NCBI GenBank assembly: GCA_902728285.1
Contig: CACVBU010000749.1
Span: 272,352-336,351, forward strand
Reading direction: 5' to 3'
DNA from: Clytia hemisphaerica
Lineage: Eukaryota; Cnidaria; Hydrozoa; Leptothecata; Clytiidae
DNA length: 64,000 nt
Every line of letters starts with the position of its first letter. Within the stretch, counting starts at the first letter, position 1. The notes beneath the pieces were generated by a model that saw nothing but the letters and a program-made list of their open reading frames with translations, made no database searches and was not told the origin of the DNA. Below, in pieces: positions 11,059 through 55,764 of this stretch. The translations under genes were made by a program, and so were the position numbers.

Positions 11059-12075
11059 TTATTCAGACTGTTTATTTTTCCAATATTGAAATTGTTTAAA
11101 AATATCCCAAGATGATATCCGTTTGGATATCTCAATTCTTTGCATCGAGAATTGCAAGTTTTGCAGCAATTCATTATCTTGATCTGCAACAAAGTTATAA
11201 ATGAAGCCCAAAGAATAAATATCAGTCAACATGGAAGTTTTTGAATTAGAAACATTTCTTAACTCAAAGGCGAGATAAGGATGTTTTTTATTATATTTAT
11301 CGCGTTGGTCCTGAGTCAACGTGTATTTTGCAGGATGTTTCCTGAGTGTTGCCTTACCAAAGTCAATTACAACAGGTGAAAAGTTAGATCTTAAAATAAT
11401 ATTATTACTTTTGAGATCGTTATGTAGCAGACCATTTTTGTGAATATGAATCAATGCATTTATTAAGTCAAAACAAATTTGAGTCCATGTGTTCTGATCA
11501 ATCATATTCTGAATCCTGGCTTTATATATTGTTAATGGTCTGTCTCCAAAAAGAACATACTCCATAACAATTTTTTCATTCAGGACACCAAAGAGATGAG
11601 GAAAATGTTTCGACCCTTGGAGGCGTTGAAGACACGATGCTTCATGTTTAACATCAAAATGATGTGCAGATTTCCCATATTTTATTGCACATTTCAAACG
11701 ATTTAATTGCAACATGACACCAACTTTTACAACCCCAAAGGTTCCCTCGCCAATAATTTCATCCGTCATGTGCACAACCTCTTCGCTTAACATATTTTGT
11801 TTGGTGTCTAATTTAGTCTTTTGTGCTGACAGATCTCTTGAGACTGAAGACAGAATACTGTGCTCTTTAAAAACTGTTCGTTGGAGAGCTCTCAATTCTT
11901 GTTTCGACTTCACCAAAATACTTTCCATCTTACTTTTTTCAGTTTTCATTTTTTGGTTTTCATATTCAACTTTCTTCTTTTCTTCCTCCACTCTTTGTTT
12001 TTCTTCCTCCACTCTTTGTTTTTGCTCCGGCCTAGGAGCCTTTAATTCTCTCTTCCGACAAGAAGGAAGGGTCAA
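11059..12075 (-). CDS. Protein kinase with N-terminal coiled coil
   Basis: The reading frame encodes about 338 residues. Residues 15-60 are Glu/Lys-rich with repeated EEEKQRV, a likely coiled coil. The kinase domain follows: glycine loop IGEGTFGVV (108-116), Lys132 in CAIK, Glu145, the catalytic loop HNDLKSNN (Asp220, Asn225), DFG (239-240), an APE-like PYLAFEL and DIYSLG (Asp285). HND replaces the usual HRD, but all the catalytic residues are present, so it is probably active. It likely phosphorylates Ser/Thr, or it is tyrosine-kinase-like; the substrate is unknown. The frame has no ATG at its 5' end (it opens through TTG), so either an upstream exon is missing or an internal Met is used. 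The similar coiled coil at 13711-14052 could be that exon, but no donor was found there. Confidence 0.8.
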   Translation of the reverse strand: MTLPSCRKRELKAPRPEQKQRVEEEKQRVEEEKKKVEYENQKMKTEKSKMESILVKSKQELRALQRTVFKEHSILSSVSRDLSAQKTKLDTKQNMLSEEVVHMTDEIIGEGTFGVVKVGVMLQLNRLKCAIKYGKSAHHFDVKHEASCLQRLQGSKHFPHLFGVLNEKIVMEYVLFGDRPLTIYKARIQNMIDQNTWTQICFDLINALIHIHKNGLLHNDLKSNNIILRSNFSPVVIDFGKATLRKHPAKYTLTQDQRDKYNKKHPYLAFELRNVSNSKTSMLTDIYSLGFIYNFVADQDNELLQNLQFSMQRIEISKRISSWDIFKQFQYWKNKQSE

Positions 12076-12389
12076 GACATTTTTTTTTGTTTATCTAATC
12101 CGATGATCTATTCCGATTTAATAAAAACGGGTTATCTGGATTTCGATAATATTGCGAAAGTATTTAGAAAAAGATGGCTGCCGAAAGTGGGCTCAGCTGC
12201 AAATCTCAGTGAAAGATTATGATCATTTTCATCATTATTCATGATGTTTTGGACATGATTTATGAGAAGTTTGATGCATACTGGTCCAACAATGTGGAAA
12301 GACTTTGGAGAAATTTTGGCCATGCATCGTCTAGTTTTATGGACGTACAAAACCATAGAGCTCTGTAACTTGACAATGGAATGAAACTT

Positions 12390-26570: not shown

Positions 26571-26932
26571 TTATATCGAAATCAAATGAGTGATATTAAA
26601 CCGAATACTTTTCATCTGAATAAACATAAAGCCAGGTAAACTAACTGAAAACCTTAATTTCCAACGAAACTCAGTCTGACAGTTCACAAAAAATAGCACA
26701 AAAACATTGAGCCAGGCCAGTCTGAAAAGAGCCAGGCCACAAAAAAGAATGGTATGGACTTAAAGTTTGGTCATATTACAATGCTAGAAAATTATTTTTA
26801 ATCATCACGGCGATCTGCGGGGTTACAGCTTCCGCCCGAGCGCTCATTTTACGTTTTTTCGTACGCCCGATCATTACCGTAGATTTTTCCTTTTTATTGG
26901 CCGGAAGAATCTTGGACTGGCCAAAAGCTTGA

Positions 26933-29900
26933 TTTATTTCTTTCTATGGTGTTCAATCTTTTGGGCATGTGGTCACAGGAGAATTTTCTGAAAATTTTAC
27001 TCACACCCACAACGGCGAAAAGTATAACATTAGGAGAGGTTATATCTCTTCAAGGGGTGTTAAATGTTCTTCAGGTAAAACTGAAGTTGTTACTTGCAAA
27101 GTTGTGCATGGTCCGTTGCCAAAATTTATTTGCATGTGCAACAACACCTCAATTTGTTCAGAGGATGTCGGTACCTCGGTTTCAAGGATTCGTGCATGCC
27201 TTAATGCAGTGACAAAACACAATTGGTCAGGCTACAAGTTTTTTGGTTTCCATCGCAAAAAGGTTTTGAATGTCTTGAAGCCCCAGGCGAGAAGGGACTC
27301 TTTCGAAGATGAAAAGCTGCGCGATATTCAAAACATCAGATTACGAAATGCTGGTCCAACCGATAATCTCAAATCAAAACCGGCTATTGATCAAAGAGAC
27401 GCAAAAATTGATGCTTTGGTTCAGTATGCCAGCTTTAACGATATCAAAAGTATTTTTTTCTTTAGATTTTTATATAGAGTATGGTATTTAAATTCAAATT
27501 TCAACTTTGAGCCTATTTTTAAACTGCAGAATGAAATGATCCATAGCTTCAGCCCCCCTTACTTTTTTTTTTGGGGGGGGGGCTAAGAAATATTTTGGCC
27601 TTTAAAGAGCCTGGGGGCTAAAATTACCAAAATATTTGGGGGGACCTAGATTTGGGGGGGGGGCCTAGATGATCTGGCTGAGACTCTGGGGGCTGTTCAG
27701 CTAATTTCAAAAGATCTCTTATCTTACTATTAAATCAAGTATAAAAAGCAAAAGATTTGTAAACATAAATATTAATACAAGTAAAATTGAGTTTTCATTT
27801 ATCAGTACTGTACTCGCATATATTTTTTATTGACTTCTCTACGGGGGTGGGAGAACAATGTTTTTGTTTTTCCCAAAGTGTTAGGGACCTCTAGCACAAG
27901 GCAATTTTTTGGGGGGAGCTAAATCGTTGGGGGGACCTTACTTTGTTGGGGGGAGCTAGAAACCTGGCTGAAGCTATGTGATCTTAAAAATCCAACATGC
28001 GTTAAGGAGTCTATGTCTTGTGTGCGTTCTAGAACTCAAATAACATTTTGTCTCTGACTTTTTTAGCGAGAAAGGTTTAAAATCTTTGTTCTATTGTACG
28101 GTTTTTAATTTTTAGGCTATGTTTCGTATCTTTTGGAGAATCATTATGATTTGGTAGAGGAAAGTGTACTTGAAAATGATGATTTCAAAAGAAGAATTTC
28201 TAAGGTTTGCAGTAAGAATCCTCCTAAATCAGTTGAAATATCTAAGCGGAATGCTGCATCCTTAATTCTGGATAGGGCAGATCTATCTCAACGAGGATAT
28301 AAAAATACAAAAGCAACTTTGAAAATTGAAAACGTTAACCTTCCGTCATATGATAATGTTCAACACTTTCTTCAAACGCTAAATGTTGGCACAATTGAAC
28401 GAAAGTTTTGCAAGTGCCATAATGATTGCTGTTTTTCGTGCAAGTCAGAAGCCAAAGAAACATTGATTTCTTTCTTGCAAAGTAGGTTTTGGTTTCCAAA
28501 ACTCAAATTTCCTGAGACATCTCAACAAGAAATATTATTTAATGAATTGAAGAAATTGAACTCTGACCTATATGGACATTTAAATCCTGACTTAAGAACT
28601 ATTTTTATTCGCCTTACCGGGGATAATTTCAGGGCAGCAGGTAAAATTCCAACAGAGCAGATCTCATACTCTGTTCTTAATAATGATTGTTTACTTCATT
28701 CCCCTTACGGACCGTTTCTCCCTTCTTTGTGGCGCGGCTCAGAGTCACGGCTTAACATTGAAATACACGTATCTGAGCATTATGCTGAAGTGAAACAATT
28801 GTTATTAAAATAATGGTATTTCAATTACAAATGAAAATGGCACTACTCAACAGTTTAATGTCCTTCCTATCCTGTGTGCAGACTTGTCCTTTGTCAAAGA
28901 GGTTCTGGGCAAGTGCTCTTCTACAAGTCTCTACGGTTGTTTTTATTGCAAACGTTCAATAAATGATTGGAATTCTGACAAATTGTCGGAGGTTGATGAT
29001 CAAAATTTGCCAGAATGCATGTCTTTTGGGGAGGAAGCATTGAAAACGCTTGGTTAACACCCTGACCATGATTCACTTTCCAGCACAATCACTATGGACA
29101 ATATGTAAGTAAAATATTTTTTGTAACCTCCCTTCATTATCTTTTTTTTTGCAATTTGTAAAGGTCTTTCAAAAGTTTCCTAAAATAAAAAATTCTTTTA
29201 CTACCTGAAATCTTAAATAAAATATTATTTGCTTTTTAGAATACAGGTGAAGGGACAACTATTTATCCATTTCTCTTCAAAAAAATTGTTTTCTTTTTAT
29301 TTGTATCAAGTTTTCATACTTTAAGGCTCCTCCCCTACTTGATTGTGTTGAATTGATGTTGGTAATTCCATGTGGACTTCACCTCATCCTTGCCCACCAT
29401 CGCTACCTTTGGAAGTTTTTTTTTGATATTGTTGTTGACCGAAAGCAAGAGGAAGTCATCTCTAACGCATTACGTCATATTGATTGTCACTACCTAGCAT
29501 TTCAAATTGACGCATACATTAAGAGGTAAATCTTATGTCTCTTGTCTACGTATGTTAGTCTTTTAGTTTTACACTGGTAAAAGTAGCATGGCAAGCATTT
29601 ATCAATATTGATATTATAATATTATAATAAACTAATATTTAATATAAAAATTTTTATTTTTGTTCAGTAAGAAGAAACATTATGATGGTTCAGCCCAGCT
29701 CAAAATGATTGGGGAAGATTGTAAGCAGTTAGAGATCAACATCGAAAAGTTCATTTGCTACTTTTTGAAAGAAGGAGAGAGTGTCGGTCAAAAAAGTTTT
29801 GCAAAGATGAGAGAAGTGATATCACTTTACCGCATGTTTAGGGATATAGCTTTGGATATTAGGTCCACAACTGTTAATTGGGACAGAATCAATTGCTTCC

Positions 29901-30319
29901 AACAAAAAGTTGATAATTTTTTTTCCACATTTAAAAGATTTGCAAGGAGTCAGGCAACTGGAAAGAAACCATATCTTCACATTTTGAGGGAGCATATTTG
30001 TAAGATTATGAAGTTCTGGGCAGTGATTGGATTTGGTTATGGTTGCTTTAATTGTAATGGAAGTGAATATCTAAATAAAAGAGTAAAGACTTTGGAATTA
30101 AACAGTACAAATCTTGATGCAAATAGGTTCGCAACAGTGATGAGAAGAATGAGGCTCAAGCAATTTCACTTTCCCGAGAGCATAGTGCATGAGGTTTCTT
30201 CAAAACTTAAGTGTTCCAGATGCCACCAATATGGACATAACAAAGGAAATAAAAATTGTCCACAGCACCCAAGTCAGCCAGATCTGTCAGATTTTGAAGA
30301 TGAGGCAGATGAGACATAG
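26933..30319 (+). pseudogene. FYR-like/DDE-like/zinc-knuckle family, copy B (truncated, broken)
   Basis: Exons: 26933-27449 (only the second FYR-like module; the 5' half is missing), 28116-29104, 29326-29525 and 29668-30319. The introns sit where they do in copies A and C. Motifs: WSGYKFFGF, RNAGPTDNL, RLTGDNFRA, CADLSFVKEVLG followed by GCFYC, CGLHLILAHHRYLW, NGSEYLNKR and the knuckle CSRCHQYGHNKGNKNC (C-x2-C-x3-GH-x6-C). Lesions: a frameshift near 28812, an in-frame TAA near 29054, and a donor at 29105 that would shift the frame by one base. The last exon, with the putative catalytic Glu and the knuckle, is intact. The three acidic motifs (GDN, ADL, GSE) fit an RNase H-type DDE transposase; this is inference. 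Confidence 0.65.
27542..27978. mobile_element. G-run inverted-repeat element in intron 1 of copy B
   Basis: The ends CATAGCTTCAGCC and GGCTGAAGCTATG are inverted, and TGATC occurs on both outer sides, a likely 5-bp target duplication. The interior has several G runs (up to 11-12) and GGGGGGAGCTA-type repeats. No gene inside. Confidence 0.75.
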
Positions 30320-31931: not shown

Positions 31932-32480
31932 ATGAAGGCATGCAGTGTGGTAAATTGTTCAAACCGATAAATTTCGAAAAAGATTGCTGAGAGTGGTGTA
32001 AAAAAGAAATACAAATCGTACAAAAACATTCCTTTCCATTCTCTCCCTGTTGAAGAAGATAGACGTGTAAAATGGATTGCTTTCATTAACAGAAAGCCAG
32101 GAACTCTTCCAAAAAAAGTTTATGTTTGTGTTGATCATTTTGAACTGGGGAAGAAAAGTAATGACAAAACACATACTGATTATATACCAACTATCGCTGC
32201 TCAAACTAAGGAGAAAAAGTCATTCGAATCAACACAATCTTCATCTTCTTCTACATCGCCTAGAGTGTCTAAAACTAAGCTGAAAACACCCAGTAGAACT
32301 ACTTCTAAACTGCACTCAGCTTCGTCCTCATTGAAACGAACAATGAGGCACAAAAAGATTCTGATGGCTCGATTGAATAACCCAACCCCAAGATCCAAGC
32401 CAAAACTCGAAGATACGTTACCTGTAATTGATAACGATGATAACGAAAATCAAGACAATGACACTGCTGCTTTGTTTTGA
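31932..32480 (+). pseudogene. THAP-domain DNA-binding protein, in-frame stop
   Basis: The ATG at 31932 opens a THAP-type C2CH finger: CSVVNC, then a conserved Trp (VKWIAF) and CVDHF (C-x2-H-F). THAP fingers bind DNA and form the N-terminus of some transposases. A TAA at 31968 interrupts the finger after 12 codons; the same frame then runs open to 32480 through a Ser/Thr/Lys-rich tail. The DDE transposase at 35991-37052 lies downstream on the same strand, so this was probably its N-terminal part, as in ISL2EU-like transposons. Confidence 0.7.
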
Positions 32481-35990: not shown

Positions 35991-37052
35991 GGGTGTCGCA
36001 CCGCCACTGATTTAGAGGAAATAATTTTGAATAAAGATAAAGAACTCTCCTCATCCAAGCGGAAAATAAATTTATTAAAGCATTGTAACCGTCACCTGAA
36101 AAATAGATTTGAGAAGCTTAACAATATTACTAATCTCAAACTAATTGAAACACGAAAAACTATACGAGAACATGTTTTTTTAGTAAACAACGACACAGGC
36201 AAGATGAAATTCTACACAGGTCTTCCATCCAATTTTTGATGAAATATTTAACTTTGTTAAAGATCACGTGGATCGAGATGAGAATTGGATTAAATTAACA
36301 CACAAACAAGAATTCATAATTGTTTTAATGAGGCTTATACTGGGCCTTTTGGAGCAAGGTCTGGCGTACAGATTTGGAGTTTCCCAACCTACTATTTCGA
36401 GGATAATCAACCGCTGGATTGGAGTGGCTTGAATTTCTTATCCACTGGCCGAGAGCAACTTAAAAAAACAATGCCTGGATGTTTTTTGGATAACTTTGAA
36501 AAATGTGCTGTCATTTTGGACTGTTTTGAGATTTTTATCGAGAAGCCTACAGATTTAACTGCTAGGGCCCAAACCTGGTCCCAATACAAGCATCATAACA
36601 CTGTAAAGGTCTTGTTGGGTATGACCCGACAAGGGACAATTTCATTCATTTCCCAACCATGGGGAGGACGAGCCTCAGATGTTCATGTCACTGAAAATTT
36701 GAGCCTTTTGAAAAATCTTGTTCCAGGAGATGTTGTGATGGCTGACCGTGGGTTCACCATAAGTGATTCAGTTGGACTTCATTGTGCTACATGAAAAATT
36801 CCTGAGTTTACGAAAGAAAAGTCTCAACTGGAAAAAGTTTCTCTAGATGAAACGTGTGATCTGGCTTCCGTTAGAATTCATGTAGAACGAATAATTGGAC
36901 TGTTACGAAATGAATATACTTCGTTACAAAAGATTGCCCCTATCAAGATGTTAATGTTAAAAGCTGATGGAACATGTATACTATCAGAAATTCTAACAGT
37001 TTGTTCAGCGCTCAGTAATTTGAATGGTGGTACCCTTGGATTGATAAATCTA
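35991..37052 (+). pseudogene. DDE_Tnp_4 transposase (PIF/Harbinger, ISL2EU-like), frameshifted
   Basis: After a plausible acceptor (TTTTGCAG at 35983-35990) come a coiled coil, then a helix-turn-helix of the HTH_Tnp_4 type ([29 protein letters not shown]), then the DDE_Tnp_4 domain: VILDCFEIF (first Asp), VMADRGF (second Asp) and RIHVERIIGLLR (Glu). All three catalytic acids are still present. Frameshifts near 36230 and 36430-36460 and a TGA near 36792 break the frame. It cuts and pastes DNA in intact relatives. The gene converges with the nuclease gene on the other strand, and their 3' ends overlap. Confidence 0.8.
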
Positions 37053-38177
37053 TAGATCATTATTTTTTTTGAAAACAATTTTTCAAAAGTATTCTTCAAA
37101 AAAATAGAACAAATATTTTTTAACATTATATAACAACAGTTACAATTTTTTTTATTAGTTTTTGGCTTATTTTTTGCTTTCCGACAGCAATATGGGTAAA
37201 ACCATTTCTTCTTTGTGACTTTTTCAATAACCAAACAAGAAATATGATACTGCTTCACGATACAAGATTTGTCGGCACAAGTAATAAGTTCTGAGTCAAT
37301 AGTCTGTTCACAAGTACAAACATTTTCAGCCCTGTTTTCTTTGTTTTTGATTTCCGGAAGTGGAATGCGACATTTTGAATACCAGTGCCCAATAAGTTCA
37401 GGTAAAATTGCATAAACGAAGAATTTTTTGTTAATATCAACTTTTTCAACAAGAAAGTCATAGTCGATTTCAATGACTTCAACAAGACAATGTTTATAAC
37501 CAAAAACCATGAAATAGCACGCCTCACGATTAGCCATGAGCATTTGCAATTGTACCTGATAATAATACGTGTGATCTTGCTTTAGGTAATATTTTTCATC
37601 AGATTCATTGAATATCATACATAATTTTGTATCAGTTTTTGCTAGATCTGTAGATTTTTTTTTAAATTTGATAGGGCATTTTATTTCAATAACATAGCTT
37701 TCTTTGCAACATGAGCAATCCAGTAATCCATCTGGTGAAGCACCGAGAAATGGAAATACACTACTTCTAATTAATCTGGATTCTTTAATATTTGCGTCTC
37801 CATGCTCATGGTTAAGATAAACTTCCAGATAGGAGAGGGCAACTTTTTCATTATCACAGCCATAAGTTGTTGCATTGCTTGTGAATTTATGCATTTGCGG
37901 ATAACAAATTTGCATGATCAGACTTTTCGATGGCTGTGATACATTTGAATGACAGGCTTGTCTAAATTTGCTTGCAGTAATGACACCAGCACGTGCTTCG
38001 AACCAAAGGTTTGATTTAGCCTGTTCTCTAGTGTGTTGTTCAATAAGGTTTACATCTTCTTCGGTGATGCTCAAAGAGATATAGTTGGTAACTGATTCTT
38101 GGATTAGCTTATGATATTTAAAATTATTTTCATCATCGTATTTCTTATCATAGAATTTGTTAAACAGAACCCCTTTT
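36878..38177 (-). CDS. YqaJ-type nuclease part of an ISL2EU-like transposon
   Basis: Minus-strand frame. The YqaJ exonuclease core (PD-(D/E)XK fold) is visible: WFEARAGVITASKF, GASPDGLL (Asp), IEIKCP (Glu and Lys) and YYYQVQLQM. A Cys/His cluster follows (CTCEQ, CADKSC, YHISC, PYCC), like a degraded PHD finger. The frame is open to 36878, so its last 175 bases or so are antisense to the transposase 3' end. The true end may be earlier. Upstream it runs into the inserted element at 38172-39341, which separates it from its N-terminal half (39408-40172). In ISL2EU-type transposons a SWIM plus YqaJ protein accompanies the transposase. Confidence 0.8.
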
Positions 38178-39341
38178 GGACCTACCGGGAGGTCCTTTAA
38201 TTTGACTGTTGTCCGTTCGTCTGTTACAAGCTTTTCTCGGGATTGGCTCATTATTTTTTTTTTATTTTTTGCACAATGATACAAAATAGCAATGCCTGAA
38301 AAGTGACGGAGCCCGATTTTTGAAAAAAATTTTTGGGAGGCAAATTTGGGCCAAAAACTACCTGAAAATAAGGTTTTTTGGACTTGGTGCAAAATTGCTT
38401 CATTAGTTTTTCCTGATTTTTGGCAGAAAGATAGAGTGCAAGGTACCCTAAAATGTGGCTGAAGTAATTTTTCTCGGAAAATTTTTTTTCGTCGTAAAAT
38501 ACGGATTTTCGTTTTTTGGGGAAATTCCCTTTTACCATTTTCCTGTCAGCAGCTTTTCTCGGGATTGGCTCATTAGTTTTTTTTAATTTTTTGCACAATG
38601 ATACAAAATAGCAATTCCTAAAAAGTGACGGAGCCCGATTTTGGGCAAAAAACTACCTAAAAGTAAGGTTTTTTGGACTTTGTGCAAAATTGCTTCATTA
38701 GTTTTTCCTGATTTTATGCATAAAGATGGAGGGCAAGGTTCTCTAAAAAGTGGCTGAAGCAGTTTTTTTCGGAAAATTTTTTTTGGCCGTAAAAATCGGA
38801 TTTTCTTATTCGGGGAAATTCCCTTATATCATTTTTAGGAAAAAAAGAGCATTTCTTGCGATTGGATTGATATTTTTTTCTGAATTTTTGCACTTTGATG
38901 TAAAATAGTAATATTTAAACTCTGATGAAGCCTGATTTTCAAAAAATAATTTATTTGGGCAAATTTGGGCCAAAAAGTGCCTAAAAATGGGATTTTTGGA
39001 CTTTGTGTGAAATTGCTTCATTAGTTTTTTCTGATTTTTTGGACAAAGATGATTTTGGCCGTAAAAATCGGATTTTCTTATTTGGGGAAATTCCCTTTTG
39101 TCATATTTAGGGAAAATGAGCATTTCTCGAGATTGGCTTGGTATTTTTTTCTCATTTTTTGTATGGTGGTAATTTGGGTAGAAAAGTGCCTAATGTTTGT
39201 TTTTTTTAGACTTTTTTGACTAATTTGAGCTCTGATACTCACGGTTATCTATTCAAGCTGCTCACTACACTTTCTTATTCCCTTGCTATTTGTCCTATTT
39301 TTTCTGATTTTGATCGACAGGTAGGTAGGTCCATTCAGCAT
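38172..39341 (-). mobile_element. GGACCTACC inverted-repeat element, copy 2
   Basis: Read on the minus strand it begins ATGCTGAATGGACCTACC (39341 downward) and ends GGTAGGTCCAAAAGG (38172), the same ends as 23775-26570. The body is diverged repeats of GGAAATTCCCTTTT and GATTGGCTCATTAG blocks. It splits the SWIM and YqaJ halves of one gene. The frame of the YqaJ half happens to run on into it. Confidence 0.7.
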
Positions 39342-46562: not shown

Positions 46563-47435
46563 TTTTTAAACGGTACTAAAAAGAAAAGGAGGAACATGAA
46601 GGTCTGAAATAACATAGTCGTTTAAATCAATTTTTGTTACAAAGTATTGGCATTAGGGGATGTGACTTGTTTTTGAACAAGTTCATCAAACTTTATAATA
46701 GTGACAAATCGTTTTCAAAGGGAAAATAGGTTAGGCAAGGCACATTAGTGCCTTTAGTGTTTTTTTTTAAAGTGGGTTGATATTTACATTGAACTGTAGA
46801 TTCCCATATGCCTGACTCTACTGATAGCTTTTTCTCACGGCGATTTCGCCGCTCACGCCTTCCGCCTAGGGCGTGGAAGTTTGTTTCGCGCGTTTTTATG
46901 TTTCGGAGTCATCTGTCTAACTTTGCTACCCTCTAATTGGCTGAAAGTTATTGCTGACCCTGCATATTTTGGTTTGTTTTGATAAATATTGCAAAGAAGC
47001 TTCGATTGGAAAAGAATGGCGCTGGAAAAGACTGTGAAACAATTTTTTTTGATGTTTGAACTTCGTGTATCCCTTCGGGGGATTGGTGTATCCCTTCGGG
47101 GGACTTTCACTTCAAGCGTTGTTTTATCAAAAGTGGGATGGTTCAGGATCAAGAATTTGGTTGTACAGGAACTAGTAATCTTTCAACCTTTCATAAAATG
47201 CTATTTTAGCTCATTTCCTCTATCATAAAATATACTCATAGGTTAATGTTCTGGTCAGACTCATTTCCATACTTTTTTGTTCTGTAGATTATTTTTTCGA
47301 CTGTTTTGCTTTCAATTCTTTCCATAATGGCGGATTTCAATTTCAACTTTTTGCTTGCCTGGTGGCGATTTTATGCTTGTTATATTGTTAAAAACTTGCC
47401 TTTTTTAGTGGAGAAGTTATTAGTTGTAAAGAAAA
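46563..47435. other. Intergenic
   Basis: No gene is recognised. GTATCCCTTCGGGGGA occurs twice in tandem near 47067-47104, and a short hairpin, CGGCGATTTCGCCG, lies near 46838. It should hold the promoter of copy C. Confidence 0.4.
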
Positions 47436-50400
47436 ATGGAGCAAAGCTGGGATGGAATCATAAATATTGGTTTAGAAATTAAAGATTTGAATATTGTTGA
47501 TTTGTGGAGAACACCTAACGGATTGGTCTATAGGGATGGTTATTGCTGTAAGAGAAGTATGAAGGTTGGCGACATTACCTATGAATTGAGAAACAGGATT
47601 TTCAAAAGTGAAAGAGGAAATCCCATGTTTGAAACTGTTTATGAAGACAAAGATGGGCCAGTGAGGTTGATGAGTAAAAATCCTACAACAGTTTACCGAA
47701 GTGTCTTACAGAAATTAAAAGTGCAGATTAAAGGAAAGCTAAATGGACAGAGATTTTTCGGACTTTCTACTAAAGATTATGAGTCTGCTTTAGATTCAAA
47801 ATGTAATAATTTGACAATGAATACTCTGTTTGCTGATAAGGATTCTGACAACTTTATATACCTGTCCATGTTCGGAAATCTACATTCAAAAGAGTAGTGA
47901 GTACTGGTATCCCATTTTATGATCCAGGATATGAACGAAAAATTTGCAATGTTTCTTGTCGACTGCAACCGGGATATGAAATAATTCGGCAAATGCAACT
48001 TCCAAATTCGTCTATGTATATTGACGTTCATTTGTGTATTGAAAGAGGTGATGATGGTCCAATTTTCAAAGGGTTCACAAAATCAGAGCCGATAATTAAC
48101 GTTTCCAATAAGGACATAGGGATAGTTGTTGGAGAAGTATTTTCAGAATTGAAAATCAACAAAAGAAAGAGTTGGTCAGGTGTTGAGTTTTTTGGTCTGG
48201 ACCGTTCTGAAGTGATAGATATTACGAGTAAGCCACCAAAGATACCCAATGATCCATCAGAAGAGTTAGACAATGTTAATGACTACTCAGAGATATCAGT
48301 TCTTAATGATGCTTACCAAATTAGGAGAAGAAATGCTGGACCTACGAGCAACCTGTGTCCAAAGGCAATAAAAGCACGTAACGAAACTATTCACAAACTT
48401 GTGCAGTATGCATCATTTGGCGATGTTGCTAGTATGTATGATTCTTTTTTTTTTTTTGCTATAAGCTACATCAGGAGCTAACAGTTTGTGAATGCACACA
48501 AGTTGTGAATTTACAGTATGTAACTCAACAAATATAATATTAATAATCAAATGGTTCTCTATTTTGGTTTGATCTATGTCTAGTAGTATTTTCTAGAAAG
48601 TTTTTTTTCACAACTTGTGTCTCATCAATATCTTGTACATGGACTGAAAATTACAATCAGAATTGTTTTGAAAAGTTGTTAGTGTAAAAATATATAGTGT
48701 TACGCCAAACGATTAGTTTTTCATTTTCATTTAAGGTTTCGTGTCGTATCTTTACGAAGAATTTTTCGATGTCATCAATAATGTAATAGACAAAACGTCT
48801 GATGAAAGTATGCGGAAGCTTCTTAGAAAGTTGAAAGTTGTTCAACGACCAGTATCATTATCATGTCAGGAGACAGCAAGAATAATGATGGGGAAAAATG
48901 AAATGTCCCAGAGAGCCTACATTGAACTGAGAGAATCCCTCAAACACAATAACATAAACATTCCTCCCTATGTTGAACTGAAATCATATTGTAAAAGACT
49001 GGATGTTGGTAACATTATGCCTTTGCATCATAGTAACGATGATTCTTGCCAATGTATGGGTTTTGGCTCTACAGCTAGAGAAACTCTTCAGTATGTTTTT
49101 AAGTGTCCAGAGTATGCTGGAAAGATGCAATTTCTCTCTGAAGAGAGAAACAGCAGGCTCTCTTATTTTCTCAAATCAAAAGACGGCGAGCTGTATAAAA
49201 ATTTTGACCCAACGAGAAGAACTTTGATTCTTAGAGAGACTGGTGACAACTTCAGGAGTGTTGGACGATACCCAACGGAACAGACATCATTTTGTATCTT
49301 AAATTTGATAGATCTTGCCTCTGGTCCTTATGGACAGTTTATCACTACCCTATGGCGAGGAAGTGAGTCTCGTCGCACCCTCAAAATTCATTGCAAGGCT
49401 CATTATGATGAGATGACTGATCTTGTAAAAAATAGTGTCACTATCAATCATGGCTCAACTGAAGAAGTTTTCAACGTTGTGCTTATATTTGTTGCAGATC
49501 TTTCTTTTGTTAAAGAGGTTTTGGGAAAATGCTCCTGTACACATACTTATGGATGTTTTTCATTGTATTCTTCCGCAAAAGTCCTGGTCAGCTGTTAAAC
49601 CCATCGCTGGAAAATCACGCTCTATAGCGCACATGGATGAACTTGGCTTGAAAGTAGAAAAATCTCTTTGGGGAAAATCCAAACAAAGATAGTGTACTTT
49701 ACAAGAAATTAGCTCAAGATGCATTTGGTCAGTGGGTAAGAAAACAAATTTATTTAGATATTCACTAGCCTTTATGATGTTTTTTTTCATGTCCCTATAC
49801 TTTCAGTAAGCAAATTTTCCAGAAAACAAAAAAACAGATGAAAATCATATAGATAACTGATACACCAAAGCACTTCTACTTTTAGGAGAAAGGTAATGAA
49901 TGAAGCTGTATCAGGAAAGTTTCTGGGGATACATTTTTGTTCTCAAAAAGCTTTTTTTTTTTTCTTTTGCTGTATTAAAATCAGTTTTGAAACTTTTTGA
50001 TTTTCTTTATTTTTTAGGCTCCTGTTATGTTGAAAGGTGTTATTATGGAACTCGTCCCCCCTTGTGGGCTACATCTCATTCTGGCCCATCATCGGTATCT
50101 TTGGAAGTTTCTCCATGATATTGTCTCAAAGCGAAAACAAGAAGAACTCATTCCAAAGGCCCTCCGCAAGATTGGTTGCACATACCTAGCCTTTCAACTG
50201 GACAGTTACTTTAAAAGGTTGGTATTCAATTATAGAAATGTATAATACACAACTTCAGAAATTTAATATAAATTTTTACTTTTGCTACATATGTCAATAA
50301 GGAAATAATTGGGTGTGGATGGAGTACCTTATCAGCCCTTTTTACGCAGACCCTAAGTTAACGCCAGCCCTTATTGCGGCAAAGCTCAATGTTTTTAATT

Positions 50401-51689
50401 TTTAGCCCGGTCATAATTTATTATGCTAGCGACAACAAAATAATGCCAAAAAGGGCTGGCTTAAAAAGGGCCATCAATAAAGTATTCAATAAAAGTATCT
50501 TATTCACAGTTGATATTGTATTTTTTTTTTTCAGTAAAAAAAAGCATTATGATGGATCTGAAAGTCTTAAAATGATAGGAAATGATGCTAAAATTCTTGA
50601 GGATAACATTGACGTGTTCCTGAATGAATTCTTAAAGGCTGGCGAAACCTGGACTTCTGCTAAAAAGTTGCGCCAAATACTCAACCTGTATAAGCTGTTA
50701 AGTCTAAAATTTTTCTTTCCGAAATTGTCTGATTTTTTTTTCATTTGTTTTTGCATTTTTGTTTGATCCAGTCAAATCTTGTACCTTAAGGGGATTAATT
50801 TTCGCGGGGATTATATTTTTGTGAATTTTGCAAGGTTTTCCCTTGATTCGCGAAAATTAATCCTCGCAAAAATTTTCAAAACCTTTGGATTCTAGAAATT
50901 CGCGAAATATAATCCTTGTGAAAATAAAGTTTTTCAGACATTGGTAATTTTAAAGGCTTTTTAGACGTAATTTCCCTTTGTTTTTAAGAAATAAGCCCAC
51001 TTCTCGCGAAACTTGCGAAATTTAATCCTCGCAAAAATTTACAATTCCCGTCTTCGCGAAAATAAATCCTGCGAAAATTAAATTATTTCGCGAAAAAAGT
51101 TGCCTCTTGAAAATTCCCGCAAAAATTAATCCCCTTAAGGGTAGTTGTTACTTTTAATCGTCTTTTTTGCTTAATCTGGCCTTATTAAAATTTCAATTGA
51201 ATTTTCTTCTTTAGGGATATCAGATCACTACAAGGCAATGAAGAGCGAATTAATTCCTTCCATTCTCGTGCTGAAAACTTTTTCCAAAAGTTTATTCACA
51301 ATGCTGGCACTGCCAATGTTTCTGGCTTACCTTATCTTCACTACCTCAGGAACCATTTAGGTTTAATAATGAAGAATTTGTTCGAACTATTTGGGTATGG
51401 CTATGGTGTATTTTCAACCAATGGAGGAGAGCATCTAAACAAGAGGATAAAACATTACGAATTAAATGAAACTAACCTTGACAATTTGAGATTTCAAACT
51501 GTGATTAGATTGATTCGAACAAAGCAATTTCATTTTTCATCTTGTGTAATGAAAGCTCACAGAGAAATGACATGTTCTCGTTGTAATCAACCTGGCCATT
51601 ATCGGAGTAATAAAAGTTGCCCAATGCACCCCAGTCACCCAGACACTGGTTTTGACAGTAGCGACAGCGAAGGAGAAGAGGAAAACTAA
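47436..51689 (+). pseudogene. FYR-like/DDE-like/zinc-knuckle family, copy C (full layout, broken)
   Basis: Exons 47436-48431, 48736-49735, 50018-50217 and 50535 to about 50700, then about 51215-51689; introns are GT-AG. It is the only copy with the complete order in view: two FYR-like modules (KLNGQRFFGL, SWSGVEFFGL), RRRNAGPTSNL, RETGDNFRS, VADLSFVKEVLG, CGLHLILAHHRYLW, NGGEHLNKR, then the knuckle CSRCNQPGHYRSNKSC and an acidic tail. Lesions: -1 frameshift near 47893 (AAAAG run), a one-base shift near 49555 (T run), and an ~510-bp insertion near 50703-51214 that holds an inverted-repeat element. Homopolymer-run indels could be sequencing errors; the insertion is not. Confidence 0.65.
50784..51142. 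mobile_element. ACCTTAAGG-family inverted-repeat element, copy 2
   Basis: It begins ACCTTAAGGGGATTAATTTT and ends AAAAATTAATCCCCTTAAGG, inverted copies. The interior repeats CGCGAAAATTAATCC-like motifs. It lies within copy C of the FYR-like family and interrupts its last exon. Confidence 0.8.
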
Positions 51690-53714
51690 ATTTAAATTAA
51701 TTTATTTTAATTCAATTATTAATTCATTTTAATTCAGTTATTTATTAGATTATTAGTATTATATATTTTTAAAGATAAGGAATGTTCAAATAATTTAAGC
51801 AAAACAAAAAACAAAAAAAAATAGTTGCTTGAAGTTCTTTCCTTATTACCTAAATGAAGCCATAAAAGATTAATGTTCTTGTCTGATTGCAATTGCAATT
51901 GGATCCAGGTTCGACCCCTGGTTTTGGCTGTTATATATACCCTTGTCCAATGGTGGCAAGCTTCAACAAGCTCAAGTAGTTTTGTCAAAGAAAAATTTCC
52001 CTTACCAGCCTTAAGGATCTTAATTGTAATGTTTTTTGATATTTTGCAATCAACTGAATGTATCTTCAAGAAATTCTTGAAGATTGGTGCGTCCATTCTA
52101 AACACAGGTTCGACCTATAGCATCACACTGCACCATTTAGTTCCATTAAGGAAATGGAACGATTGCAAAAAAAAAAAAAATTTTTAAATCCTATTTTCTT
52201 CTTGTATGCTTTTAGTGTGAAAATCTATCATCATGAAAAAAAAATAATTCAAATTATACATAACATCTGTATTTATTTTTAGAAAAGTCATCATTTTTAT
52301 TGCTCATGTTAATTTTAAAGTTTTAACACCTTTTTTGATAGGAAATTCAGGTTTTCGTTTTGTATAGATATATATTTCTGGTGTCCTTCATTCATGTTAC
52401 TTTTTAAAAGTTGCATGTATGATTGCACAAGAAATGATCACAAATATCATAATAAAACAATATTTAATTTAAATTTGGATTTTATTTTAGAACATAATCA
52501 ATCTAAAATGTTATTTATTTATAAGAAAATCACAAATTTGCCACTTGTTTGATAATAAGCAAAATTTTTACCAGACTTTTCTAGGAACAATAAACGTTCA
52601 TCTAACATTGTAAACGTTACGTGCCCTGCCCTTTTAGGCACATAACGTTGTTTTGACGTTCATCTAACGTTATATGGACGTTACGTGCCCGACGTGCCCT
52701 TATATTATAATATAATATATCTATTTCTATATTTTTTTATTTTTTTTTATCATTTTTTTATTTGTTTTATTGTTTTTTTTTCATACTTTATACATCGACG
52801 TTCATATAACGTTATATTTCCCTTACCTTTATTATTGGTTTTTTTTTTTTTCCTTTAGTTGACTGAACAATTTTCCATTGACAATTTGATCTTCATATGC
52901 ACATGGTGAGTCAATTTCATCCAATTCTTTTCATTGATGGGTTGCTTGTATTAATAAATATCACGCCCAGCTTTTGAGACTGGAATTCCTAATGATTAAA
53001 TTAGGCGTTTTTACCACTTAAACTAACGTGACAATGTTTGTGTTGATTCTCAATATTTTTTTTCTAAAAAGAGAAGTTGGAAATATTAAGCAAAGAGGAA
53101 AATTGGTGATTTAAAATTAAGATTTCTTCAAAAGTCACCTTAAAAACAAAGAATTTAAGTGAAAATTTCATACTGATTCAAAGCTGTCATTCAAGCACAA
53201 GAAATTAACTGAAAATCCATACTGATTACTAAAAATAAAACAATCCTAACAACCAGAAGCTGTGTTTCAAAACTAGTAAACAAAGTAATATCTTCTATGT
53301 AACAAATTTATATTTAGAAATAGCTTTTATCTTTGAAAAATGGGGGTGTACAAGTTTTCGGATTGCTAAAAAACCTAAGAATTATTTTCTGTGATTTAAA
53401 TTATTCCGCACTGTTCCGCAGAATATTTTCTCAGTTCAGATAAAGAATAAGAATAGTTTGTTATTTTTGTTAATTCTGTCATTTTGCAAAAAAGTCAAAA
53501 CAGTTTCAGAAAAATCTACAGAAGGAACCAAATTTTAAGATTGAGAAATAAAATGCGCTCCACGAAACTGTTTTCTTGTTTGCCTCGAAAAGAATAATTT
53601 CCATTTCATTAACATTTCCTTACAAGCTAAAGAATAGAAACAAATAAATGGAACTATTACCGGCAATTGCTGTAACTTAGAACTACCTGACAAATTTTGT
53701 TTCATGATTAAGGT
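51690..53714. other. Intergenic
   Basis: No gene is recognised. Around 52598-52705, AACGTTCATCTAACGTTATATGG-type motifs and a GTGCC/GGCAC stem repeat. Long T tracts occur. Confidence 0.4.
51905..51921 (+). other. tRNA-like T-arm / pol III B-box
   Basis: CCAGG-TTCGACC-CCTGG is a perfect T-arm: 5-bp stem, 7-base loop, with the B-box GGTTCGACCCC. No A-box or acceptor stem was found in the 75 bases upstream, so it is not a whole tRNA gene. It may be a SINE relic or chance. A weaker second B-box (AGGTTCGACCT) is at 52106. Confidence 0.35.
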
Positions 53715-53983
53715 ACCTTAAGTAGATTAAAAAGTTTCTCGTAGATTAATTTTTGCTATTTTGACCATTTTTAATTCAGTCCACGCAAAAAGTTTGCAAA
53801 CAACTCATTTGTGAAAAAAGTCCAAACAAAATTTTCGGAAATTTTTACAAGTGTCCCAAAAAATAGAGAAAGAATCCCACACAAAATCTTTAGCACAACG
53901 CAGTTTGCAAAATTTTGTCAATGCTAAAATTCTAAAATCTAAATTCGCGAAAAAAGTCCACACAAAAATTAATCTTAAAGGTA
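53715..53983. mobile_element. ACCTTAAGG-family inverted-repeat element, copy 3
   Basis: It begins ACCTTAAGTAGATTAA and ends AAAAATTAATCTTAAAGGTA, inverted with mismatches. The interior has CACAAAAAGTTTGC-type repeats. The most diverged copy of the family. Confidence 0.6.
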
Positions 53984-54068
53984 TGTTGAGAAAAGTTTGA
54001 TGATAAATTGGTTAAAATATCAGAACAAAAAATACAGTCCAAAAACAGCTGATCCCAGGTTCCATGTA

Positions 54069-54361
54069 AGGCGGCCATCAAAAAGTTGCTCTGTTCGCGT
54101 CGCAGCGGGTGCTAAAAATGCATGCGGGCGGAGGGGCGGGCGGAAAAATTCCCGGTTCTTGGAAACGCGGCAATTGGTCAAGAGCGGGTAGTGAAACAAT
54201 ACAATTTTTCGACGGCCGCCAGAGCGATTGAGAAAAAAGCTTTACTTTGAAAGAACAAATTGCTTTTCCCAGGTTTTTTCCCGCGTCTCCGCATCGGAAA
54301 ATCAGTGAAAAATATGATGCAGGCGGGTGACGGGAACAGAACAATTTTTTGATGGCCGCCT
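54069..54361. mobile_element. AGGCGGCCATC inverted-repeat element
   Basis: AGGCGGCCATCAAAAAGTTG at 54069 is inverted at the right end (CAATTTTTTGATGGCCGCCT, ending 54361). Further copies of the motif lie inside (near 54200). GC-richer than the surroundings; non-coding. Confidence 0.75.
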
Positions 54362-54604
54362 AATTATCCCAAGTTACAGCAGTTGACGGTTCTATATATC
54401 TGTCAAAGTAGAGTTCTACAATGCTAATAAGCTTTTGACAATAAACTGTTATCAATATGAACTTTTTATATACAAGCTGATATGGGAAAATGATTATCGA
54501 GTCAAAAAAATGTCTTAAAATGAAAATAGCTGTGTAGTCTCATGAAACAAACCTTATGTAGACTGTAAACTTTAAAAACAAAAAATAAAATATAAACTGA
54601 TAAA

Positions 54605-55604
54605 CTAAATTCCAACATCATGGGTTAAAAAGCCAAGGCTGTTGAAACAAGCATTTTGATATGTTATCGTTAAAGGTCCATGCATGTCTGGATTACATTT
54701 TCCATGTGAAATTTCAAAAGGACGATGATCCTGCAAGATTGAGGATTCAAGAATAAAAAAATTTCCCCTCACAACAGGGTTTACAAAAATTGAGTAGGGT
54801 GCACAAAAGGCATTTCTTTCTATGTCCGTTGTGAAACGAACACATTTCAAGTTGCTATTGAATGTATCAATAGAACCATCCAAGGACAGTGTAAAAATTG
54901 TTTCGTATTTTGAAAATATCGCCGTCATTTACATCTTGATGTTTCGAGATGTAGCCGATATCCAACCGGGTTCCTTTTTCAACTGTTATAGTACCTACTC
55001 CTGGCTCAAAATTAAAATGAGTTATGGGTAGGTCCAAACCAAAATCACTCATTAATGAAAATGAGCTTGCCCATTGTGGTACCTCATCGTTTTCGTCAAG
55101 GCCACCACATGGGACAAACACTTTAACTTTATTCTCACCCTCAACTTTCTTCACTGGAATAGCAAGTCTTCCTCCTTCAAAACTAATCATTTCAGCTGCC
55201 AATAACTCCCCATCAACCAATTTATAGACTTGTAACTGAGTCTCTTGTTTGAAGGAGACCCACGGACAAACTAACAGCTTGTCATGAAAGCGCAAGTGCT
55301 TAACCAAACACTTGTCGTCACTGAATAGCTCAGAAACTCGTCTGAGCGATTTGATAGCAAAACTTCGCTTATCAATACTACCAATCTTTGGCACTTCAAG
55401 TGGCTCACCAGGTACAAACTTTTTACCAAACAACACAGCAAATGAAAGCTTAGGAACGTCATTGATCAATATTTTCTTGTGGTGTGGATTACATGCATTT
55501 GATTTCAAGACATTACTATCTCTAAGCTTTTTTTTCACACGAGTTTCAATGTTTTGGTTGACACATAAGAAGAATTTTTGAAGAGAGTTATGATTGAGCG
55601 CCAT
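54605..55604 (-). CDS. Orphan protein of about 330 residues, one apparent frameshift
   Basis: Single exon on the minus strand. The ATG at 55604 has a good context (AAAATGG). The first frame runs to about 54890, and the second continues to a stop at 54605; the switch lies in a T/A run near 54885-54895, so it may be a sequencing error or a real lesion. The product is mixed alpha/beta with many beta-like stretches. It begins with a helical basic segment (VNQNIETRVKKKLRD), and the middle has PWVSFKQETQLQVYKL and VKVFVPCGGLDENDEVPQW. There is no zinc finger, signal peptide or membrane segment. I do not recognise a family; no neighbour explains it. Confidence 0.55.
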
Positions 55605-55764
55605 TTTCTTTTTGATGAAGCCTTCCTTCTCGGACTGCGTATGTTATTGTGGCCCCGGGTTTCCGTGATCGGAAAGGAACATTCTACCGTGCGCTATTTT
55701 ACCGAACGAAACTCAAAACCGCTTTATAGTTCCAAATCGAAATCGCCGTGTCTCCCAAAGTAAT

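Follow-up and report, generated by a model that had tools for sequence, protein, structure and literature searches.

A two-gene DNA transposon family with tandem FYR-like modules and a predicted RAG1-type core in Clytia hemisphaerica

What kind of gene joins F/Y-rich modules of the chromatin type, a DDE-like domain and a zinc knuckle is the question raised by a 64,000-nucleotide stretch of the genome of the hydrozoan Clytia hemisphaerica (assembly GCA_902728285.1, contig CACVBU010000749.1, positions 272,352 to 336,351 of the forward strand), here called the window, in which an initial annotation had described a three-copy transposase family (copies A, B and C). Our analysis indicates that the family is very probably a cut-and-paste DNA transposon with two genes, of the RAG1/Transib/CACTA (CMCT) kind. 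Gene 1 would be the transposase, in which a pair of FYR modules and a linker precede a RAG1-type core, followed by a CCGHC-like zinc-knuckle tail, and gene 2, ORF2, would lie at the opposite end of the element and be transcribed toward gene 1. The termini, the 3-bp target duplications, the empty sites, the convergent pairing of the genes, the conservation of the acids and zinc-type ligands, the FYR similarity and the constraint on ORF2 are demonstrated at the sequence level, and the RAG1-like fold by prediction only. The relation to RAG1 and the second gene had both been missed by the initial annotation.

Termini, target duplications and mobility

The copies in the window are genuine homologues whose translations can be aligned over their shared length, and tblastn between them gave 55.8% identity for exon 2 of A and B (E = 1e-87), 34% for exon 2 of A and C (E = 1e-41) and 51% for the last exon of B and C (E = 4e-43). 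The proposed limit of three copies does not hold, as a search with nothing but the last exon of B gave 120 matches at the exon level across the genome (417 Mb). Many Clytia copies keep this exon unbroken, and the homologues with a named source are uncharacterized proteins of C. hemisphaerica (P0001, 992 aa; P0002, 960 aa) and Hydra vulgaris (P0012 and P0013).

Stretches of about 10 kb around 20 copies were compared, and further stretches were then added. In near-identical pairs, the similarity drops sharply at CAC[A/G]GCGAT on the upstream side of the gene and, on the downstream side, at the reverse complement of this motif; in three checked pairs, 59 or 60 of 60 bases were identical inside the ends and 18 to 27 of 60 in the flanks. 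The shared terminal inverted repeats that the initial annotation had suggested looking for are present. Both ends were found for 11 elements, namely 9 of the 20 initial loci (copy A included), copy C and locus L040, and 10 of these elements are 7.6 to 10.6 kb long; the tally of ends omits the downstream side of L010, L011, L022, L025 and L028. A 3-bp target duplication flanks all 11 (ACA, AAA, GTT, TGG, AAG, TCT, ATT, CTG, AAT, TAA and AAA). The flanks agreed at a length of 3 in 10/10 elements and at a length of 4 in 1/10, a run of A, with copy A (AAA) scored separately.

Empty sites were sought with 10 joined flanks, each with 100 bases per side and one copy of the duplication. Matches spanning the junction were obtained for L017 (100%, 201 bases), L018 (98%), L024 (94 to 96%) and L020 (93 to 97%), and likewise for L026 (97 to 98%), here in a repeat with many copies. 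The best matches for L017, L018, L026 and L024 have the same length as the query, and those for L020 show small length differences. We regard the identification of the family as a mobile element as secure.

Copy C gives the most complete view of the element in the window. The gene does lie at 47436-51689 as first described, but the real unit is larger, an 8,915-bp transposon (46836-55750, plus strand, CAC...GTG) with a second gene. Its ends were set by comparison with the near-identical copy L040, with 59/60 (5') and 60/60 (3') bases identical inside the ends and 19/60 and 20/60 in the flanks. The target duplication TCT lies at 46833-46835 on the left and 55751-55753 on the right, and the terminal inverted repeats, identical over 13 bp, are at 46836-46848 (plus strand) and 55738-55750 (minus strand). 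All three window copies have the 5' end, at 2609 (minus strand) in A, 26806 in B and 46836 in C, and in C the 3' end is present as well, at 55750. The 5' part of copy A occupies 1-2609 on the minus strand (exon 1 at 2026-973 and exon 2 from 710), with a reading frame that is open wherever visible; the copy extends beyond the window edge to C522:259071, has an ORF2 match at C522:259277-260167 and is about 15.9 kb long, with long non-coding stretches breaking up the element. Copy B (26806-30319, plus strand; exons at 26933-27449, 28116-29104, 29326-29525 and 29668-30319) has frame breaks, as does copy C, and an additional stop; it lacks FYR module 1, and neither the exact 3' end motif nor ORF2 was found for it within the window.

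Some other copies and parts of the elements show peculiarities of their own. In L028 around 3191 (C600), two copies are arranged in head-to-tail order at a distance of about 8.7 kb, and the 3' end of one runs directly into the 5' end of its neighbour with a single base missing, a junction that could have originated from a circular excision product. Short head-to-tail repeats (VTLDERYNLIYSRFI), open in one frame, lie just 3' of the transposase gene in L016 (8156-8803) and L018 (8196-8483). Window positions 52080-52136 and L017 9721-9777, in the 3' parts of elements that have otherwise diverged, share a short segment (91% over 57 bases) that has a tRNA-like look and a core resembling GGTTCGACCT.

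The transposase and its FYR modules

The transposase gene of copy C is read on the plus strand as five coding pieces. Exon 1 (47436-48431), with one frame break, encodes FYR modules 1 and 2 and the RNAGPT linker, and exon 2 (48736-49735), with further breaks, a DDBD/PreR-like part and the first half of the RNase H core; intact relatives of these exons are P0005 (93%) and P0004 (98%), respectively. Exon 3 (50018-50217) contains the LH motif and helical insert, exon 4 (50535-50700) more of the helical insert (KKHYDGS) and the last exon (51215-51689) H(4)H, the catalytic E and the zinc knuckle. Exon-by-exon reading bore out the earlier description of a common motif order and common splice phases, with phase 1 at the exon 1/2 junction in A, B and C and, in B and C, phase 0 at exon 2/3 and phase 2 at exon 3/4. 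The WSGxxFFG, RNAGPT, GDN, ADLSFVKEVLG and G(S/G)E-x-LNKR motifs, the LH segment and the CCHC knuckle were likewise all present in the copies. In copy C, a palindromic repeat (50784-51140), with 29-base arms that are 93% complementary, lies between the two final coding pieces; copy B reads unbroken across the matching site.

The three acids had been predicted to be catalytic and are indeed conserved in wider homologues. In copy C, their codons are at 49245-49247 (GDN), 49497-49499 (ADLSFVKEVLG) and 51429-51431 (GGEHLNKR), all on the plus strand, and correspond to D543, D627 and E907 of P0001, which are conserved in 31/31, 29/29 and 14/15 aligned rows; the sole exception, P0003, stops before the E907 motif. 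The C(2)C pair (C646/C649 in P0001) is conserved in 31/33 and 30/33 rows and the H(4)H pair (H877/H882) in 15/18 and 15/16, and the exceptions at these four positions (P0004, P0005, P0006, P0009, P0028 and P0035) are taken as fragment ends or intron read-through. The tail knuckle, Cx2Cx3GHx6C (51573-51620 in copy C, plus strand), is also well conserved, with C956 in 13/13 rows, C959, G963 and H964 in 12/12 each and C971 in 12/13. A predicted structure of full-length P0001 agrees with the RNase H-type transposase first suspected, in that it has the RNase H-like order and a long helical insert, with D543 on the core's first strand, D627 just past strand 614-624 and E907 on a helix beyond the insert. 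In structure comparison, this model matches RAG1 specifically. A RAG1-type core consisting of DDBD/PreR, an RNase H domain with DDE, ZnC2/ZnH2 and a C-terminal domain is strongly supported by the predicted structure and the motifs together.

The F/Y-rich modules, for their part, proved to be FYR-like by a Pfam FYRC match, a Protein Data Bank (PDB) profile match to the FYR of TBRG1 and a structural match. FYRC was matched by 9/42 members at E up to 0.5, with P0007 reaching 24.0 bits against the curated cut-off of 21 (E = 4.5e-5), the only one above the cut-off among six members whose scores were inspected; in exon 1 of copy C, the match is sub-threshold in both reading-frame pieces. The A5 profile gave a single PDB match at E up to 10, the TBRG1 FYR structure 2wzo over module 2 (E = 0.015), and the A2 profile had 2wzo as the best of three matches at E up to 1, covering module 1 (E = 0.012). 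Since the 2wzo profile matches cover each module and the structural FYR match spans module 2, both modules are considered FYR-like. No account of an FYR-carrying transposase was found in the literature searched. We infer a chromatin role for the FYR pair.

ORF2, the second gene

A match to ORF2, a gene of about 300 aa, is found in 11/11 complete elements near the far end and on the opposite strand, although it is broken in several of them. In copy C, it lies at 54605-55604 (minus strand), convergent with the transposase, and has a frame break; its intact relative P0052 represents one of two sub-types, which are about 25% identical to each other. For the analysis of pairing, 68 transposase last-exon places were picked by hand from the 120 matches and four were added later, leaving out fragments and rows of the same gene. 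Manual merging reduced the 68 genome matches of sub-type P0052 to 47 places. In 30 of these, a listed transposase last exon lies no more than 12 kb away (28 different exons in all); the closest one is convergent in 29/30, and the thirtieth place (C347:86946) also has a convergent one listed (C347:81863). Merging brought the 66 matches of sub-type P0039 down to 32 places, not including fragments and places already counted under P0052, and all 21 with a last exon within 12 kb have a convergent one. Among 15 pairs from six sequences, the proportions of synonymous (pS) and nonsynonymous (pN) differences were 0.70 to 0.86 and 0.23 to 0.55, with synonymous divergence saturated in 12, and ORF2 is, as judged from these coding sequences, under protein-level constraint. 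Pfam Kelch and RAG2 models gave no match in 20 ORF2 members at E up to 0.5. The best conserved patch in ORF2 alignment A6 is HGLxVGDxLVVRGKxYxI, and weak Pfam Phage_attach matches occur in 5/20 members (best E = 0.031).

Taken as one system, the linker/DDBD part and the zinc tail of the transposase would grip the asymmetric CACRGCGAT ends, the cut would be made at the CAC border in the RAG/Transib manner, and the ends would be joined to the target with a 3-bp stagger between its strands. The FYR pair may tether the complex to chromatin, and ORF2 might be an accessory subunit, placed like the RAG2-like proteins in RAG-like transposons.

Apart from the family, the window contains genes with a THAP domain (31971-32477, plus strand), a DDE_Tnp_4 transposase (36294-36791, plus strand) and a YqaJ exonuclease (36878-38542, minus strand) close together, which we take to be perhaps the remains of a Harbinger/ISL2EU-type transposon. 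An ORF at 11059-12087 (minus strand) contains a protein kinase domain (Pkinase E = 2.3e-19), and its N-terminal stretch is charged and repetitive.

Placement and comparison with known systems

The defining motifs of the CMCT clade (EnSpm, Mirage, Chapaev, Transib and RAG1) are C(2)C and H(3-4)H between the second D and the E; its ends are mostly CA..TG, with 2- to 5-bp duplications (PMC12730594). RAG-like transposons combine two convergent genes, RAG1L and RAG2L, with RSS-like ends and duplications that are nearly always 5 bp long (PMC7204232). The motifs C(2)C, LH and H(4)H are given for Chapaev, and TWA targets for Chapaev3 (PMC4079192). The family described here has C(2)C and H(4)H, CAC..GTG termini with 3-bp duplications, a predicted RAG1 core fold with DDE and ZnC2/ZnH2, and the FYR domain, by FYRC above the cut-off and by fold. 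Only 1/11 of its target duplications fits TWA. By its build, the family looks as if it would function in the manner of a RAG-type element. Because the CMCT features are present and the 5-bp duplication of RAG-like elements and the TWA target of Chapaev3 are not, we file the family in the CMCT clade with its subgroup open.

Several results weigh against our interpretation. The duplication is 3 bp in 11/11 elements and not the 5 bp of RAG-like transposons and Transib. The hidden Markov model profiles A1, A4 and A5 retrieved no RAG1 or Transib chains from the PDB at E up to 10, and no RAG1 or transposase model was among the families listed in the Pfam scans (25 of 37 in one of them); as there is no sequence-level match to RAG1 or Transib, the relation to RAG1 rests on predicted fold and motifs. 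FYRC is weak in the window copies, with E values of 0.044, 0.094 and 0.21 in A and C and no match in B. For ORF2, none of the listed transposase last exons falls within 12 kb of 28 of 79 places (17 of P0052 and 11 of P0039), the AlphaFold2 model has a predicted local distance difference test score (pLDDT) of 54.9 and no reliable structural match, and any binding to the transposase is putative. No exact 3' end was found in the downstream DNA examined of L009, L012, L013, L019 and L021, L015 has a 3' end and no 5' end that was found, and 5 of the 10 flanks (L016, L023, L027, L040 and copy C) gave no empty site among 40 of 2,439 candidates scored.

A strict EnSpm/CACTA or Chapaev lineage that gained FYR domains and an unrelated second gene, with a coincidentally RAG-like layout, is a possibility that we take seriously without favoring it. 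CAC..GTG ends with 3-bp duplications are consistent with EnSpm according to Kojima 2025 (PMC12730594), the C(2)C, LH and H(4)H of Chapaev (PMC4079192) are all present, and the fold ranking is no bar since the 50 matches listed include nothing under the names EnSpm, Mirage or Chapaev. However, the termini are CACRG and not CACTA, 10/11 target sites are not the TWA of Chapaev3 (PMC4079192), and the knuckle Cx2Cx3GHx6C resembles the RAG1-like Cx2Cx3GHx4C (PMC7204232). It is rather unlikely that the family descends from a RAG1L-RAG2L transposon in which RAG2L was replaced or changed past recognition and the target spacing was shortened to 3 bp, given the 3-bp duplication, the lack of Kelch or RAG2 matches among the 20 ORF2 members and the lack of any sequence similarity found to RAG1. 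That the copies form an immobile host multigene family of chromatin proteins domesticated from a transposase would fit the multi-exon genes, their annotation as uncharacterized proteins in Clytia and Hydra and the broken state of window copies B and C, but is highly improbable in view of the inverted ends, the target duplications in 11/11, the near-identical copies with unrelated flanks and the empty sites. Domestication is contradicted for these copies, and single domesticated copies without ends are conceivable.

We tentatively suggest that a lineage outside the known RAG-like group might use the RAG1-RAG2 plan with other parts, namely a RAG1-fold transposase, a built-in tandem FYR chromatin reader, a convergent non-Kelch ORF2 partner and 3-bp joining. 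If so, RAG-type recombinases with two subunits would have evolved repeatedly or with exchangeable partners. The classic example of an immune recombinase derived from a transposon is RAG1-RAG2, and the way in which a transposase of the RAG1 type gained its second protein is an open question. An abundant family in one laboratory animal, Clytia, with relatives in a second, Hydra, opens partner choice, target spacing and targeting to chromatin to comparative tests.

With ProtoRAG and other RAG-like elements, the family shares the predicted RAG1-type core fold, the DDE and zinc ligands, the CCGHC-like tail, the CAC ends and the convergent second gene. It differs from them in the 3-bp instead of 5-bp duplication, the tandem FYR instead of a RING/zinc-finger N-terminus, an ORF2 without detectable Kelch, termini of CACRGCGAT and no detectable sequence similarity, and its tail is a near form of the Cx2Cx3GHx4C motif given for invertebrate RAG1L (PMC7204232). 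Transib (HzTransib) differs in its 5-bp duplication, and to our knowledge no FYR or second gene is known from it. Chapaev/Chapaev3 and EnSpm (CACTA) have in common with the family the CAC..GTG ends, 3-bp duplication, C(2)C, LH and H(4)H, in contrast to which we find no TWA preference, CACRG instead of CACTA and a convergent ORF2. The Chapa domain described for Chapaev, with which Transib is grouped (PMC4411706), is replaced here by the N-terminal FYR pair, and in contrast to TBRG1 (2wzo) and MLL-type FYR, the modules are in tandem and fused to a transposase. Compared to RAG itself, the predicted fold and the layout are the same, the latter resembling the RAG1-RAG2 ancestor, while the putative partner, the target spacing and the fused chromatin domain are different.
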